Source: Crocinitomicaceae bacterium
GTDB taxonomy: Bacteria; Bacteroidota; Bacteroidia; Flavobacteriales_D; Crocinitomicaceae
Reading direction: 5' to 3'
NCBI GenBank assembly: GCA_018402525.1
Contig: JAGYIR010000014.1
Coordinates: forward strand, 124,001-188,000
DNA length: 64,000 nt
Shown: positions 25,959 to 31,527 of the stretch, piece after piece
Numbering within the stretch: position 1 is the first letter of the stretch
How the letters are laid out: every line of letters starts with the position of its first letter
Notes under the pieces: model-generated
Seen by the model: the letters and a program-made list of their open reading frames with translations, nothing else
The model's database searches: none
What the model was told of the DNA's origin: nothing
Program-made: the position numbers and the translations under genes

Positions 25959-27116
25959 TTAAAATGCCTGTTTCAAATCATTCCACAAGTCGTCGACATG
26001 TTCTAAACCAATTGAGAGTCGAATTAAACCATCCGTAATCCCAACTTCCAAACGCTGTTCTTCTGTTAACTTTGAATGTGTCGTTGAAGCTGGATGCGTA
26101 GCGATACTTTTGACATCTCCTAGATTTGCCGTCAGAGAAAAGAGTTTCACTCGATCCAAAAAACGCTGACCACCATGAAATCCCGTTTTCAATTCAAAGC
26201 TGATAATTCCTCCCCCTGCACTCATTTGTCGCTTGGCAATTTCGTACTGCGGATGCGATTTCAAAAATGGATATTTCACCTTTAACACAGAAGGATGTTC
26301 TTCCAAACGCTTGGCGATTTCAAACGCATTTTTGCAATGACGCTCCATTCTGACATCTAAGGTTTCGAGCGCTTTGGACTGAATCCAAGCGTTAAATGGG
26401 CTTAGTGCTGGACCGGAATGCCGTGCAAAATTCCTCACCTCATCGATGATGGCATTAGAAGCCAAAATCACTCCACCCAAGGTTCGACCTTGTCCATCAA
26501 TGTATTTTGTCGATGAGTGAATGGAAACATCTGCTCCGAGCGCAATCGGTTGCTGCAACAGCGGTGTCGCGAAACAATTATCAACCACCAATAAGACATT
26601 TTTTGCTTTGCAAATCGTCGCCAAACGCTGAATATCGATGATGTCTAATCCAGGATTGCTGGGAGACTCAATATAAACGATTTTCGTCGAAGGTTGAATC
26701 GCTGCTTCATATCCAACATAATCGTCAAAATCGACGTAAGTCGTTGAAATGTTCCATTTGGGTAAAATCTCCGTCAATAATTTGTGCGTTGAACCGAAGA
26801 CGGAGCGACACGAAACAATGTGCTCACCTGCAGAAAGTAAAGCGCCAAACAACGTGAAAACAGCTGACATTCCAGTCGCGGTTGCCCAACCATTTTCAGA
26901 TCCTTCCAAAACTGCCATGCGCTGAACAAACTCATTGACGTTGGGATTTGCATACCGTGAATAAATCAACCCTTCTTTCTCGTCGCAAAATTGCGCGCGC
27001 ATGTCTTCTGGATCATCAAATACATAACTGCTTGTCAAATAAAGCGGTGCTGAATGTTCGTTGTTCTTTGAGCGTTCGATTTGATTGCGTATAATCTTCG
27101 TTTGTTTATTTTCCAT
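25959..27116 (-). CDS. metZ: O-succinyl/O-acetylhomoserine sulfhydrylase (PLP enzyme)
   Basis: The 385-aa Cys/Met-metabolism PLP enzyme has the lysine motif SIHSSTKYIDGQGR, with K in the family position, and SAPLYLTSSYVF at the N-terminus. The ATG at 27116 is preferred; six bases upstream a TTG would also fit. It is the last gene of the methionine operon and overlaps the stop region of osmC-like 27106. With metX present, direct sulfhydrylation of an acylated homoserine is the likely reaction. Cystathionine gamma-synthase activity cannot be excluded. Confidence 0.85.
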   Translation of the reverse strand: MENKQTKIIRNQIERSKNNEHSAPLYLTSSYVFDDPEDMRAQFCDEKEGLIYSRYANPNVNEFVQRMAVLEGSENGWATATGMSAVFTLFGALLSAGEHIVSCRSVFGSTHKLLTEILPKWNISTTYVDFDDYVGYEAAIQPSTKIVYIESPSNPGLDIIDIQRLATICKAKNVLLVVDNCFATPLLQQPIALGADVSIHSSTKYIDGQGRTLGGVILASNAIIDEVRNFARHSGPALSPFNAWIQSKALETLDVRMERHCKNAFEIAKRLEEHPSVLKVKYPFLKSHPQYEIAKRQMSAGGGIISFELKTGFHGGQRFLDRVKLFSLTANLGDVKSIATHPASTTHSKLTEEQRLEVGITDGLIRLSIGLEHVDDLWNDLKQAF

Positions 27117-27522
27117 GGTCAACTTTTTTGAATTTTAGTTCAATGCGAATTTCATCATTCAACGAGGCAGCAACGGAGCAGTACTTTTCAAGCACCAATG
27201 CTACTATTTTGCTGAAATTTTCTTCTTCTTGATCTTTCTCCAATGCAAATTCAAGGGTAATCAATTCAAAAGGTGCCAATTCACCCGGTTTTCGTTTGGT
27301 TTCAATGTTGATACTAAAGTTCTCAGGTTCTTTGCGTTGCTTTTTCAAAATATGCAGCACATCAATCGAAATGCAGCCGGCCAAGGAAGCTGCTAGCAAC
27401 TCCATCGGTCGAAAACCTTTGTTCTTGCCACCAATTTCTTGACTTGCATCGATCAAACATTTCACTCCTATGTCGTTTGTCACCTCAAACACAAAAGGAG
27501 TTTCTATCCGTTCTAACTTCAT
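27106..27522 (-). CDS. OsmC-family protein
   Basis: The 138-aa protein has the OsmC fold features: GFRPMELLAASLAGCISIDVL, containing one redox cysteine, and later KYCSVAASL with the second. OsmC proteins reduce organic peroxides or handle sulfane sulfur. Its position between YeeE-type transporter genes and metZ in a SAM-riboswitch operon favours a role in sulfur handling, which is inference. Its start overlaps the upstream gene by 4 nt. Confidence 0.82.
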   Translation of the reverse strand: MKLERIETPFVFEVTNDIGVKCLIDASQEIGGKNKGFRPMELLAASLAGCISIDVLHILKKQRKEPENFSINIETKRKPGELAPFELITLEFALEKDQEEENFSKIVALVLEKYCSVAASLNDEIRIELKFKKVDHGK

Positions 27523-27938
27523 TTTTTTTCAATTTTAGATGCGACTAAACTGTAGAGATATGTACCTAGCAATACACCGGCAAAAAGTAGTAGACCAATT
27601 TCCCATTTAAATCCAACTAACACATAAATTGGAGCGGTACATGCACCCGAGATGGCCCAACCGACACCAAAGATCAATCCACCGAAAATAGCTCTTTTCC
27701 AACCTGTTTGTTTTTCGGTGACGGTGATCTCTTCGCCATTTATCGATTTTACATCCTTTCGTTTGAAGATAAACACAAAAATGGCTGACGTTCCAATTGC
27801 CGAAAAAAGCAATCCGTACATGTGAAACGATTCGAAATAAAACATCTCTTGAATGCGGTACCACGAAAATGCTTCCGATCCAATCAGCACTGCACCGAAC
27901 AAAAATCCAAGAACGAGCGTAATAATAAATTTTAACAT
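27519..27938 (-). CDS. YeeE/YedE-type membrane protein, half 2 (DUF6691-like)
   Basis: The 139-aa protein has four predicted membrane segments. The key motif is FGVGWAISGACTAPIYVLVG, where a conserved Cys lies in the membrane. YeeE/YedE (TsuA-type) proteins import thiosulfate through such cysteines. Half-length pairs are known in which two small proteins replace one long one. It follows its partner with 2 nt between stop and start. Confidence 0.8.
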   Translation of the reverse strand: MLKFIITLVLGFLFGAVLIGSEAFSWYRIQEMFYFESFHMYGLLFSAIGTSAIFVFIFKRKDVKSINGEEITVTEKQTGWKRAIFGGLIFGVGWAISGACTAPIYVLVGFKWEIGLLLFAGVLLGTYLYSLVASKIEKK

Positions 27939-27940
27939 GA

Positions 27941-28432
27941 CTAAAAAATGTAAGGGTTAATAAATTGAGCTGTAATAACTCCTGCCACAAAAAACGCTAC
28001 GGTTGCTATGATCGAACTCACTGAAAATTGAGAAACGCCCATGATGCAATTTCCAGCTGTACAGCCATTGGCATAACGAGCCCCAAAACCGAGGAGAATT
28101 CCACTCAATAAAAAGATCAGTGCATTTTCTATTCGATAGACTGGTTCTACCAAATAGTCGTCATGCGCTGCTAAATCAGGGATAATTAAATCTTCAGGCG
28201 AAATGAAGTTAATCGACACAAGGGCAGCCGCAATAATGCCCAATCCAAAGTGGAATTGCCAATTAGAAGTGGTTCGAGCGCTTTTGAAAGAATCGTTTTT
28301 CGGTAGGAGTTGTCCCAACAAAAAATTAAAACTGGACGACATTCCAAATTGCTTTTGGCGCAAGATTAACAGCGCTGGAACAATAAGACCAATCATAGGT
28401 CCTGCGATGTACCAAGGTAAGACAGGGTTCAT
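27941..28432 (-). CDS. YeeE/YedE-type membrane protein, half 1
   Basis: The 163-aa protein has about four to five membrane segments and the YeeE signature LGFGARYANGCTAGNCIMGVSQF in full length (only its core is given: GCTAGNCIMG). These cysteines are thought to pass sulfur species through the membrane. It starts 10 nt downstream of hom. Together with the next gene it probably forms a sulfur-compound transporter feeding methionine synthesis. Confidence 0.82.
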   Translation of the reverse strand: MNPVLPWYIAGPMIGLIVPALLILRQKQFGMSSSFNFLLGQLLPKNDSFKSARTTSNWQFHFGLGIIAAALVSINFISPEDLIIPDLAAHDDYLVEPVYRIENALIFLLSGILLGFGARYANGCTAGNCIMGVSQFSVSSIIATVAFFVAGVITAQFINPYIF

Positions 28433-28442
28433 AATTTTACTT

Positions 28443-29688
28443 TTATATGTGTGCGACTTCTTTTCTCAATTTCGCCTTGTCTTTCAAGAACTCTTCTGCC
28501 GAAATGACTTTCTCGGGAAGAATGACAAGCGACATTTCCTTTCTAAAGTTGAAATTGAATGTTTCCAATTCACTGAATCGCACCCAACCCGTTTGGTAGA
28601 CGTACTCCTCGCTTTGGAACAATTCATCGATGCGGTAGAACGGAACCTCGTTGATTACTTCAATGAATGGCGAACCCAAATATATTTTTAGAAAAAAATC
28701 GTTGGTGAACAACAAATTTTTATTCTCATCTTCCTTTCGGTATTCGTACTTGTAGTCAAATTTTAAGGCGGAGACATCTGAAAGCACAGCGCTTGCCGTT
28801 GGATAGCTCCCTGCCCCTTTTCCAATAAATAGTTGCTTGTCAGAAAACAGAGCCTCCACAACAACCGCATTGAATTCATTGTCGACATTGTAGGCAAAGT
28901 GATTCTCCTTGATGAAATGCGGAGCGACAAATCCAATGATTGCATCACCCAATTTTTCTGCTCTGGAAAACAATTTGATGCGGTATCCTTTTTCTTTGGC
29001 ATACGCTACTTCGTGTGGCGTGATGTGCTTGATTCCAATATTCGCCACTTTTTTCGGTTCAACGGTGATTCCAAACGCATGTTTTAACAACAATACGAGT
29101 TTATATTTCGAGTCAAATCCATCGACGTCGAGGGTAGGATTCAACTCCAGCAAAACCTAATTCCTGAGCATTTTTTAGTGCAGCATCGTAGCCAATTCCC
29201 TCGTTGGATTTCGTTAAGATGTAATTTGTAGTTCCGTTCACAATCCCTTCCACAGATGTCAATGAATCATTGTTATAATACTCTTCGAGGTTACGAATAA
29301 TGGGCACTGACCCAGCAACCGCTCCTTCGTACAACAAAGAGACGTTGTTCTTTTTCGCAATGGCGATTAATTCGTCTAAATGTTCTGCCAATAATTTTTT
29401 ATTCGCTGTAACGACATCTTTTCCAGCTTCTAACGCACGTTTGACAATGTCGTATGCGGCATCGCTGTCATTGATTAATTCGATTACAACATTGATTTCA
29501 TCGTCTTTTAAAACATCATCGACATTGTACGAAAAGTGACTTTCATCAATGCTTCTAATTTTAAATCGGTCTTTCACTACAATTTTTGAAATGTGTGCGC
29601 TGATCAATTTGGATTTGTTCAACACTTCATAAAGTCCTGAACCTACACATCCAAAACCGATTAGTCCTATGTTTAACTCTTTGCTCAT
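28443..29688 (-). pseudogene. hom: Homoserine dehydrogenase, one frameshift
   Basis: The first part (29688 to about 29150) has the NAD(P) motif IGLIGFGCVGSGLYEVL and the catalytic region VTANKKLL and VEGIVNGTTNYIL. At GCTGGAGTTG the frame breaks; with one G fewer it reads GFAELNPTLDVDGFDSKYKL, the exact family motif, and continues to 28443. The restored length is about 415 aa, normal for a homoserine dehydrogenase without aspartokinase. It makes homoserine for metX, which precedes it by 6 nt. Because an inactive copy would block methionine and threonine synthesis unless another exists, a consensus error is likely. Confidence 0.82.
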
Positions 29689-29694
29689 GTCTAT

Positions 29695-30774
29695 TTAATT
29701 TAAATTATTTAAGTGTATTAGTTCTGATTTTCGAATGGTATTTTTAAATACCGTGGGTTTATTTAATTTATCATCAACAAAATCTGCTAGAATTGAAGAA
29801 ATTGCCTCCGTTTCTATCAAAAATCCATCGTGTCCATATTGAGATTGAATCTCATGGAAGTGCGCTTTTGGAATGCAGTCCGCAACCAATTGCTGCTCTG
29901 CGACTGGAAACAACTGATCAGTGGAAATTCCAATAACAAGCGTTTGTGCTTCGACTTGCTCCAGCGCTTTTTCAAGCGATTCACGACCTCGTGCCACGTT
30001 GTGACTGTCCATCGCCTTGCTCAGCGAAACATAACTGTACGCATTGAAACGCTTTACGAGTTTTTGTCCCTGATAACGCTGATAACTCGCCGCTTTAAAA
30101 TCATCGACGCGTGAAGTGTCACTTTCCTTTTGCGTATGTCCGTATCCTTCGTAGGAACGATAACTCAACAAAGCAATACTTCGCGCGATTGCCAATCCGT
30201 TTTTTCCTCCTTGTTGATTTCCATTTCCAAAAGTAGGATCTGCATAAATCGCCAAACGTTGGCTTTCATTGAACGCAATTCCGTATGGAGAATGCTGTGC
30301 ATTGGTTGCAATCAGTACCAATTGCTGAATAACAGACGAAGATTCAATTGCCCATTCGATGGCTTGTTGTCCACCCAGTGAAGCACCAATCAACAACTTG
30401 ACCGTGTCGATGTTTAACTTCTTGCGAAGTGCTTCATGTGCTCGTGCCATATCACGGGTAGTGAAGTGCGGAAATTGATCCAATAATGGCGGCTTGTCTC
30501 CGATTTTCGATAACGGCCCTGTCGTTCCGTAGCAAGATCCCAAGGCATTTGGACAAATGATAAAGTACTTTGTGGGATCAAAAAGGCGTCCCTTTCCGAA
30601 AAGTCCCGGCCACCAATCGAGCACATCGCTGTTTGCGGTAAGTGCGTGACATACCCAAATGACATTGTCGCGTTGCTTGTTAATTGTTCCGTAGGTGTGA
30701 TAACCTATTTCTAGCGGTTCTATTGTTGAACCATTTTCTAATTCAAATGATTGAATAATTTGTGTTGAATACAT
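29695..30774 (-). CDS. metX: Homoserine O-acetyltransferase
   Basis: The 359-aa alpha/beta hydrolase-fold enzyme acylates homoserine with acetyl-CoA (some members use succinyl-CoA). The nucleophile motif is GASLGGQQAIEW, and the catalytic His lies in SQYGHDGFLIE. HALTANSDV and LGSCYGTTGP form the oxyanion side. It is the first full gene after a SAM riboswitch and a Met/Cys leader ORF, and it is coupled with hom. Confidence 0.9.
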   Translation of the reverse strand: MYSTQIIQSFELENGSTIEPLEIGYHTYGTINKQRDNVIWVCHALTANSDVLDWWPGLFGKGRLFDPTKYFIICPNALGSCYGTTGPLSKIGDKPPLLDQFPHFTTRDMARAHEALRKKLNIDTVKLLIGASLGGQQAIEWAIESSSVIQQLVLIATNAQHSPYGIAFNESQRLAIYADPTFGNGNQQGGKNGLAIARSIALLSYRSYEGYGHTQKESDTSRVDDFKAASYQRYQGQKLVKRFNAYSYVSLSKAMDSHNVARGRESLEKALEQVEAQTLVIGISTDQLFPVAEQQLVADCIPKAHFHEIQSQYGHDGFLIETEAISSILADFVDDKLNKPTVFKNTIRKSELIHLNNLN

Positions 30775-30803
30775 GATTTTACTGACTTAAATGAATGACT
30801 TTC

Positions 30804-30822
30804 AAGTGCAGGATGTGCACTT
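30804..30822 (-). promoter_or_regulatory. Perfect hairpin between leader ORF and metX
   Basis: AAGTGCA-CATCC-TGCACTT on the minus strand forms a 7-bp stem, 28 nt after the leader stop. No T run follows, so it is not a standard terminator. It could act in translational or Rho-dependent attenuation. Confidence 0.45.
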
Positions 30823-30850
30823 AAGGATTGAATGAAGGTGTTGCTGAGAA

Positions 30851-31006
30851 TTAACAGCAGCGCATCATGCAACACATTCGTTGCCAGCAATACATAGAAA
30901 GTTGATGTTGGTTTCGGATGAACCAATTCGATACAATTTGCTTAGGTACGTTCGTTTGAACGAGACCCAACGCATTTCCTGTTTTTTTTGTGTGTACGTT
31001 TTTCAT
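30851..31006 (-). CDS. 51-aa Met/Cys-rich leader peptide ORF
   Basis: The ATG at 31006 lies 35 nt downstream of the riboswitch. The ORF starts MKNVHTKKTGNAL and ends MYCWQRMCCMMRCC; of the last 14 residues 4 are Met and 5 are Cys. This bias is what a ribosome-sensing leader for methionine or cysteine would show. The stop lies 76 nt before metX. A second hairpin (GCTG-TTAATTCT-CAGC) overlaps the last Cys codons. Amino-acid attenuation is inference; expression as a stable peptide seems unlikely. Confidence 0.6.
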   Translation of the reverse strand: MKNVHTKKTGNALGLVQTNVPKQIVSNWFIRNQHQLSMYCWQRMCCMMRCC

Positions 31007-31040
31007 AATCGTTACATTTATATTCTTCCGTTTGTTCGGA

Positions 31041-31140
31041 ATCAGGAATTGGCACCGGTTTTCCAATACTGAGATACTTTTCAGCACTTAAAGTTGGTTG
31101 CCAGAGGATCACAGAGCCTGTCTCTCACCTCTTCTTTATA
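31041..31140 (-). promoter_or_regulatory. SAM-I (S-box) riboswitch
   Basis: The minus strand carries the S-box landmarks in order: AGAGGTGAGAGACAGGCTCT, then GATCCTCTGGCAACC (GGCAACC at 31102-31096), a variable hairpin, and GGTGCCAATTCC (31056-31045). These match the conserved core of SAM-I aptamers, including the kink-turn and binding pocket strands. It precedes the leader ORF and metX, as expected for repression of methionine synthesis at high SAM. Exact P1 boundaries are uncertain. Confidence 0.8.
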
Positions 31141-31527
31141 AATCATCGATCCACCGTCGTGGCAATGATGCTGCAAATGTTTCAAAATTTGTTTGGATAT
31201 TCCAAATTAAAAATGAAAAAGTTTATTTGGATCTAGGCGAAACGCTTTGAAATTCACCAATATAGTGAGCTTTTTTGAGCGTAGTTAAACCGCAAAGGCA
31301 CAAATGGAAAAGGGAAAATGAGCAGGAAACTAATATTGACATGCAAAAACAATTAGTGTGAAACTGGTAAAACAAGTGCGCTAGGTATAGAAAGTCGTCT
31401 TTTAGACGACTCCTTGTGTACTTTTTACACCAAGATAATTCCTCAGTCTCCCGTCACTGACGTTCGGTCTTCAAAAGCTTCGCTTTTTCTCCTTTGTGCC
31501 CCTTTGCGATAAAACTAACCGCAATAA
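31141..31527. other. 387-bp gap without a gene
   Basis: This holds the upstream side of the riboswitch, an AT-rich stretch, a hairpin at 31393-31411 and no credible frame. No exact TAnnTTTG box is seen before the riboswitch; AACATTTG (minus strand) is one mismatch away. Confidence 0.5.
31393..31411. repeat. Hairpin flanking the GxxExxY gene, left copy
   Basis: AGTCGTCT-TTT-AGACGACT is a perfect 8-bp inverted repeat. A close copy, AGTTGTCT-AAC-AGACGACT, lies at 32036-32054 on the other side of the gene. Confidence 0.55.

Follow-up and report, generated by a model that had tools for sequence, protein, structure and literature searches.

Studies of gene control usually treat riboswitches and leader-peptide attenuators as alternative devices. 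In Salmonella, the mgtA Mg2+ riboswitch carries the mgtL leader, a leader peptide with proline codons. Cys-rich uORFs were reported in mycobacteria (PMC4633059), where cysteine-responsive attenuation was described by Canestrari 2020 (via PMC9031893 and PMC13236596), and poly-Cys leaders were predicted before the cys operons of Actinobacteria (PMC1262725). For the LEU element of Actinobacteria, a pairing of leucine codons with a downstream Shine-Dalgarno sequence was likewise predicted (PMC1262725). The uORFC-8-2 motif, which stands before cysS in Rhodobacterales, includes a tandem-Cys uORF proposed to sense the charging of tRNA-Cys (PMC8632094), and a SAM-I riboswitch of Xanthomonas also binds uncharged initiator tRNA (PMC7270179). 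In Flavobacterium johnsoniae, which belongs to a phylum that lacks Shine-Dalgarno sequences, RNA structure between positions -20 and +20 modulates initiation (PMC6847099), and signs of leader peptides have been mentioned for Flavobacterium psychrophilum and Bacteroides thetaiotaomicron (PMC9723704, PMC7366714).

The window analysed here, a stretch of 64,000 nucleotides, comes from a genome of 3.16 Mb in 19 contigs belonging to Crocinitomicaceae, a family of Flavobacteriales. It contains a SAM-I (S-box) aptamer upstream of methionine genes, the metX operon, and between the two a short ORF whose end is rich in Cys and Met (Table 1). The aptamer resembles the translational type of SAM-I riboswitch since it passes the model, precedes methionine genes, and has its P1 helix beside a translation start; however, the start by P1 is here that of a Cys/Met leader ORF and not that of an enzyme gene. 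With the mycobacterial and actinobacterial poly-Cys leaders, the system shares a short ORF, a Cys run near the stop, sulfur amino acid genes, and the lack of a clear intrinsic terminator; a run of Cys codons ending a short ORF before sulfur genes was found both in the family and in the best 80 named loci. For neither group is a riboswitch mentioned, and the mycobacterial ORFs are leaderless, whereas the ORF here directly follows a SAM aptamer, belongs to another phylum, and is sometimes Met-rich. In the window the leader ATG is base 139 from the first base of the aptamer, and the ORF is therefore not at the 5' end of the aptamer-bearing RNA.

The other systems differ in further ways. The LEU element shares a regulatory codon run that pairs with a downstream start region, which is seen here in only part of the family, but it concerns leucine and has no riboswitch, unlike the SAM aptamer with its Cys/Met leader. 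The Xanthomonas riboswitch shares SAM-I control of a met operon and, if the reading proposed below holds, a second input from tRNA charging at the translational level; its expression platform binds tRNA directly, whereas the present system has a leader ORF with Cys/Met codons. The uORFC-8-2 motif has an intrinsic terminator and is alphaproteobacterial, and no riboswitch is mentioned for it, unlike the leader of the window. In the mgtL/mgtA system, too, a leader peptide is encoded on the same mRNA as a riboswitch-like leader, but the architecture is different. A SAM riboswitch followed by a Cys/Met leader was not described among the literature matches listed, most subscription papers and bioRxiv preprints being outside the scope of that search. 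Two known devices occur here in a real, conserved, and apparently undescribed combination, and the riboswitch appears to control the leader peptide.

We consider it probable that the locus encodes a riboswitch-gated leader peptide, with two sensors in series on one mRNA. In a first step, SAM would stabilise the short P1 helix, made of A and U only, and hide the overlapping start region of the leader, while low SAM would open this start. In a second step, ribosomes would slow or stall at the Cys/Met codons of the leader end when charged Cys- or Met-tRNA is short, and in a third step the position of the ribosome near the leader end would decide the expression of metX, or elsewhere of metY. The outcome would be a sulfhydrylation and sulfur-import operon that is on at low SAM, with a further increase under a shortage of sulfur amino acids. 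If this is true, the end product and the supply of building blocks are joined as a two-input gate on one mRNA in a phylum using little Shine-Dalgarno, which offers a testable route for coupling a riboswitch to translation in such bacteria.

Table 1. Positions of the aptamer, the leader, their putative regulatory structures, and the downstream genes in the window
Feature	Position	Strand	Basis and remarks
SAM-I (S-box) riboswitch aptamer	31015..31144	-	Rfam RF00162, 66.3 bits vs gathering score 44.4, full model 1-108
P1 helix 3' strand, UAUAAAU	31016..31022	-	Read from sequence; can pair with AUUUAUA at 31143-31137
Leader ORF, 51 codons	30851..31006	-	Translation MKNVHTKK...MYCWQRMCCMMRCC*; no Pfam family matched by the peptide
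Cys/Met-rich leader end, last 14 codons (proposed sensor codons)	30854..30895	-	5 Cys and 4 Met
Possible hairpin, GTGTTGC (30875-30869, UGU UGC Cys codons) with GCAACAC (30844-30838)	30838..30875	-	Read from sequence
Perfect hairpin AAGUGCA-CAUCC-UGCACUU in the leader-metX gap	30804..30822 (30822-30816/30810-30804)	-	Sequence; MFE and centroid folds
Predicted base pairing between leader and metX start	30772..30896	-	MFE and centroid folds
metX (homoserine O-acetyltransferase-like), first gene past the leader	29695..30774	-	TIGR01392 MetX best NCBIfam match, 353 bits; Abhydrolase_1 (Pfam)
Homoserine dehydrogenase, two frames (29688-29113, 29153-28443)	28443..29688	-	Pfam NAD_binding_3 and both Homoserine_dh parts
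Two short sulfur-transport-type membrane proteins (28432-27941, 27938-27519)	27519..28432	-	Pfam PF04143 Sulf_transp, over cut-off
OsmC-like protein	27106..27522	-	Pfam PF02566, over cut-off
Homoserine sulfhydrylase-type PLP enzyme (MetZ-like)	25959..27122	-	Pfam PF01053, 446 bits; NCBIfam PRK08133, 512.2 bits

The S-box aptamer named in the first-pass annotation of this DNA was borne out by a match to RF00162 above its gathering score (Table 1). It is the single riboswitch match across the window at gathering scores, and no second known aptamer, as in a tandem riboswitch, was found. The 51-codon ORF with four Met and five Cys in its last 14 residues (MYCWQRMCCMMRCC) also stood; its full translation, from 31006 to 30851 on the minus strand, is MKNVHTKKTGNALGLVQTNVPKQIVSNWFIRNQHQLSMYCWQRMCCMMRCC. 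The gap of 35 nt that had been placed between the aptamer and the ORF was wrong, the ATG lying 8 nt past the last base of the Rfam match and 9 nt past the end of the P1 3' strand. The P1 of this aptamer consists of A-U pairs only, with a duplex energy of -3.5 kcal/mol vs -5.0 for one metH-class P1. Given the effect of structure on initiation in F. johnsoniae, a SAM-stabilised P1 near the leader AUG should block initiation. The longest Cys run in the window leader is two. Among 641 small ATG ORFs of the window (15-70 codons, both strands), this leader was the only one with four or more Cys within the final 12 codons.

Of 240 Crocinitomicaceae genomes, 216 gave SAM aptamers and 93 gave metX, and the regions upstream of metX were read in 77 of these 93. 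An aptamer followed by a leader ORF was present in 52 of the 77 regions (including G008, where the contig ends before metX), an aptamer directly before metX in 12, and no aptamer in 13. Twelve of these last rows were checked with cmscan over up to 1151 bases, and the other, G015, is a cut contig; in one of the twelve (G121), an aptamer and leader stand before metY elsewhere (L164). Five aptamers of the window's genus without a following metX in the stretch (G003 twice, the second copy of G005, G026, and G031) were excluded from the 77. The check proposed with the first-pass annotation, whether related genomes keep a small ORF with Met/Cys-rich final codons upstream of metX, was positive: a leader ORF is present in 52 of 77 family regions and in 78 of the best 80 named metX loci.

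The 52 family leaders span 13 genera and are 25-51 codons long, setting aside G082, for which a wrong ATG was picked. Their layout is the same: the aptamer, UAUAAAU or a near variant, and then the ATG of the short ORF, at a median spacing of 9 nt (IQR 8-9, n = 51). In the 12 leaderless relatives, the ATG of metX itself lies 8-12 nt past P1 in 11 as scored. Since metX has its own start at the position of the leader start in these genomes, the reading in which P1 blocks initiation is supported, by position as well as by this natural swap. For the same reason, the two nested controls of the first-pass annotation, supported as two putative control elements on one operon, look serial rather than merely nested.

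The swap would also suit a passive ORF for translation coupling or ribosome standby, in which low SAM admits ribosomes and the sequence of the leader is irrelevant, since the leader start takes the riboswitch-adjacent position that metX takes in 12 relatives. The composition of the leaders argues otherwise: they vary over most of their length, but show a strong bias to Cys and Met at the end. Cys makes up 35.1% of the last 12 residues of the 52 leaders vs 1.4% of the remainder, and Met 13.3% vs 1.2%. As scored, 48 of the 52 leaders have two or more Cys among their final 15 residues and 42 have three or more; three leaders (G005, G007, and G011) have 0-1 Cys near the end, and the low score of G082 results from the earlier, wrong ATG, its intended ATG giving a poly-Cys end. 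With one ORF per genus (13 genera), there were 4.64 Cys in the last 12 residues vs 1.67 in within-ORF shuffles. In addition, the leader stop lies 31-95 nt from metX in the 43 leaders used for folding, a distance that is long for translational coupling. Such a passive ORF is quite unlikely.

The reading frame bears on another alternative, in which the UGY repeats are conserved as an RNA anti-start element that hides metX or metY, translation of the ORF merely opens it, and no amino acid is sensed. The leader end is indeed complementary to the metX start in genera g8, g4, and g18 and in some members of g1. However, 226 TGY triplets of the 52 leaders are in the ATG frame vs 85 and 15 in the other frames, and runs of at least three TGY, present in 37, 0, and 0 of the 52 by frame, are confined to the ATG frame. 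Synonymous TGT/TGC changes occur inside the Cys run (G126 vs G110), the Cys bias holds in 62 named loci whose pairing does not exceed chance, and Met codons stand in its place in six loci of two lineages. Therefore, an RNA element of this kind appears unlikely. A chance ORF was rejected by the conservation, reading-frame, and within-ORF controls. In many leaders of g1, g8, Marinifilaceae, and Hymenobacter, the Cys or Met run contains or is directly preceded by a recurrent codon pair, CGA ATG (Arg-Met).

Other SAM aptamers served as a control for the association with metX. A second aptamer type stands before metH in 28 of 34 genomes of the window's genus; about 40 nt separate it from the gene start, and no leader is present. 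In the family, metH follows in all 53 metH-class loci and a poly-Cys ORF in none of them; the set comprises 53 of the 58 loci L001-L058, with L002, L030, and L031 (long class), L037 (another PLP-type gene next), and L048 (aptamer near the locus end) left out. The leader is therefore tied to metX and not to the aptamer. Among 58 aptamer places drawn from high-scoring matches across the phylum (for L241-L270, 18 of 30 loci were covered), there was one poly-Cys leader (L255, before metY) and one Cys-Cys leader (L285), whereas at L289, before a metY-like gene, the ORF at the leader position ends without Cys or Met. With 56 of the 58 places lacking a Cys-rich leader, the leader is not general for the SAM aptamers of the phylum, and a general feature of SAM leaders was rejected on these counts together with the 0 of 53.

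Beyond the family, the best 80 loci from a scan for metX relatives formed the named-genome set, nine of which (L161-L168 and L211) were already in the family set. In 78 of these 80, an aptamer and a leader are present, comprising 71 Cys-type leaders, six Met-rich leaders, and one weak leader (L168); without the family overlap, the figure is 69 of the remaining 71. No aptamer was found in the DNA stretch examined for L172 and L180. In 69 of the best 80, the ORF after the aptamer core has two or more Cys among its final 12 residues (three or more in 65, four or more in 53), and by motif 51 of these 69 stand before metY and 18 before metX; Thermoflexibacter ruber and Solitalea longa bring the Cys-type total from 69 to 71. 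The picker for the named loci keeps the most Cys-rich ORF among the ATGs 15-150 nt past the core, and so it favours Cys. Across most relatives, aptamers were recognised by a simple hand-written core pattern, and cmscan upheld the aptamer in 25 of 27 named loci tested. Short sequence motifs served to identify the genes metY, metX, and metH, with one metY (L205) and one metH (L001) checked against NCBIfam. Many named loci have no aptamer within 700 nt of metX because metY is first in the operon, and the aptamer and leader lie further upstream.

Orders carrying the aptamer and leader include Flavobacteriales, Sphingobacteriales, Cytophagales, and Marinilabiliales, and the arrangement recurs in cultured genera such as Pedobacter, Mucilaginibacter, Hymenobacter, Olivibacter, and Marinifilum. 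In 310 loci (965 kb including overlaps), 89 distinct small ORFs of the poly-Cys kind were counted; 83 of them have their end no more than 420 nt past a SAM core, and two of the remaining six (L177 and L218) follow an aptamer by cmscan; since this DNA was taken around metX or SAM aptamers, 83 of 89 is an association and not a genome-wide rate. Judging from sequence comparison, many Bacteroidota methionine operons probably read SAM and the supply of sulfur amino acids through one RNA.

The Met-rich leader ends, from five Marinifilaceae and Sphingobacterium detergens (L187, L191, L198, L213, L217, and L235), have 4-6 Met in the last 12 residues, with ends such as RMRMQHMMRMI, MMRMQRMMRML, and SMRMRMHMH at the same site after the aptamer. 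The Cys/Met codons themselves, and the replacement of Cys by Met in two lineages, fit the sensing of tRNA charge. The six loci with Met-rich ends would lack a common thiol chemistry, which weighs against a Cys-rich nascent chain or peptide as sensor or product (of sulfide, persulfide, redox state, or metal) in place of tRNA charging. For such a peptide speak the up to eight Cys in a row of the G020 leader and the sulfur transport and OsmC-like proteins of the operon, but the Cys run is usually near the stop, and residues close to the stop are mostly still within the ribosome tunnel. A peptide of this kind is highly improbable. With tRNA charging as the second input, we lean towards a class of serial RNA gates in several Bacteroidota orders, in which P1 would switch the leader ORF, the leader would read the charging of Cys- or Met-tRNA, and the residue would be swapped over evolution. 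The natural variants, with the leader present or absent and with Cys or Met codons, represent a ready comparison set.

How the leader end might act on metX can be approached through the folding of the RNA. In the window, UAUG (30896-30893) is predicted to pair with CAUG (30775-30772), which contains the metX AUG, and UUGCUGGC (30890-30883) with GUCAGUAA (30786-30779), ahead of this AUG. The stability of the fold of 30915-30755 on the minus strand is somewhat above that of dinucleotide shuffles (z -1.99), with 8 of 200 shuffles scoring as well. The duplex between leader end and start region in the window was not beyond chance when compared with shuffles (z -0.41 and -0.40). In 43 of the 52 family leaders, those with at least two Cys by an earlier picker and a recognised metX start, this pairing had a mean z of -1.11 and -1.32, with 33 and 34 of the 43 negative. 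It was strongest in g4, g18, and g8 and present in part of g1, and not beyond chance in g17 (mean z +0.08). Seven g8 leaders have a consensus helix with one-sided changes only, and two-sided covariation was not found among them. In 62 named loci, all but one (L211) outside the family and including three (L220, L223, and L231) with gene starts that are probably mis-picked, the pairing was not beyond chance (mean z -0.27 and -0.46; 35 and 33 negative). Since the leader end pairs with the gene start on average in the family and not in the named loci, such pairing was rejected as a general rule and is kept only as a partial mechanism.

A ribosome paused on the leader was modelled in the same 43 leaders. 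With a ribosome mask at the first Cys codon, the mean accessibility of the metX start rose from 0.480 to 0.614; a displaced mask gave 0.504, and a ribosome placed on the stop codon 0.521 (+0.041). The gain of 0.133 with the stalled mask exceeded that with the displaced mask (0.024) and with shuffled ORFs (0.021), with Wilcoxon p values of 0.0008 and 0.0016 that treat related genomes as independent; by leader, only 30 of 43 had a higher value with the stalled mask than with the displaced one, and only 25 of 43 a gain above that of shuffled ORFs. The unmasked start was less accessible than with shuffled ORFs (0.480 vs 0.570). In the window, masking raised the accessibility from 0.45 to 0.59, with shuffled ORFs giving 0.00 (sd 0.08). 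It appears as if a paused ribosome would free the metX start in several family genera, with a weaker prediction in the window, and the third step is partly supported by this model.

The same two sensors could instead have a transcriptional read-out, either Rho-dependent or by pausing or termination at the hairpins after the ORF. The first-pass annotation had placed a hairpin over the final Cys codons of the window leader; such a pairing is readable in the sequence, with its GCAACAC arm just past the leader stop, but it was absent from the minimum-energy fold of 30915-30755 on the minus strand. The second, perfect hairpin, located 28 nt past the stop, was confirmed and is part of that fold. Two sets of Pedobacter loci (8 and 6, including L205, L199, and L209) also have two hairpins past the leader stop, the first stem nearly invariant and the second changed on both sides of several pairs, and this, as well as the start pairing being not above chance in the named loci, is in line with a transcriptional step. 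Against it, no terminator-like site (a hairpin with a U run) was found on the minus strand of the window between 30700 and 31300, in agreement with the earlier statement that neither hairpin is followed by a T run, and no U run was seen after the Pedobacter hairpins. A classical attenuator with an intrinsic terminator was rejected for this reason, and the release of the start predicted on average by masking in the family leaders also disfavours a transcriptional read-out. We regard the latter as possible but rather doubtful; the final read-out step of the riboswitch-gated leader may differ between lineages.

The genes past the leader probably import sulfur and fix it into homocysteine, as judged from their domains (Table 1). 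Therefore, an input of cysteine or sulfur would be as sensible for this operon as an input of SAM. The metX match to TIGR01392 is below the curated cut-off of 500, and the PRK08133 score of the MetZ-like enzyme is just under its cut-off of 522, still being its best NCBIfam match. The homoserine dehydrogenase is split into overlapping frames near profile position 53 of Homoserine_dh, for which a sequencing error, decay, or frameshifting is possible.

Several minor observations were made on single loci. Five aptamer matches in four genomes of the genus (L070, L073, L074, L076, and L077) have no metX in the stretch examined; L076 and L077 score under the Rfam cut-off, and L073 retains a leader containing Cys and Met (SMRMYCMTTFCYN). 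The record of L162, whose leader is as in G126, is titled Chitinophaga pinensis; both its leader and its metX place it with the Crocinitomicaceae-like family, and the title may be wrong. In L183, L201, L216, L221, and L234, the poly-Cys leader is separated from metX by an ORF of 72-77 residues that is similar among these loci, and four of these five ORFs end in SKN or GKN.
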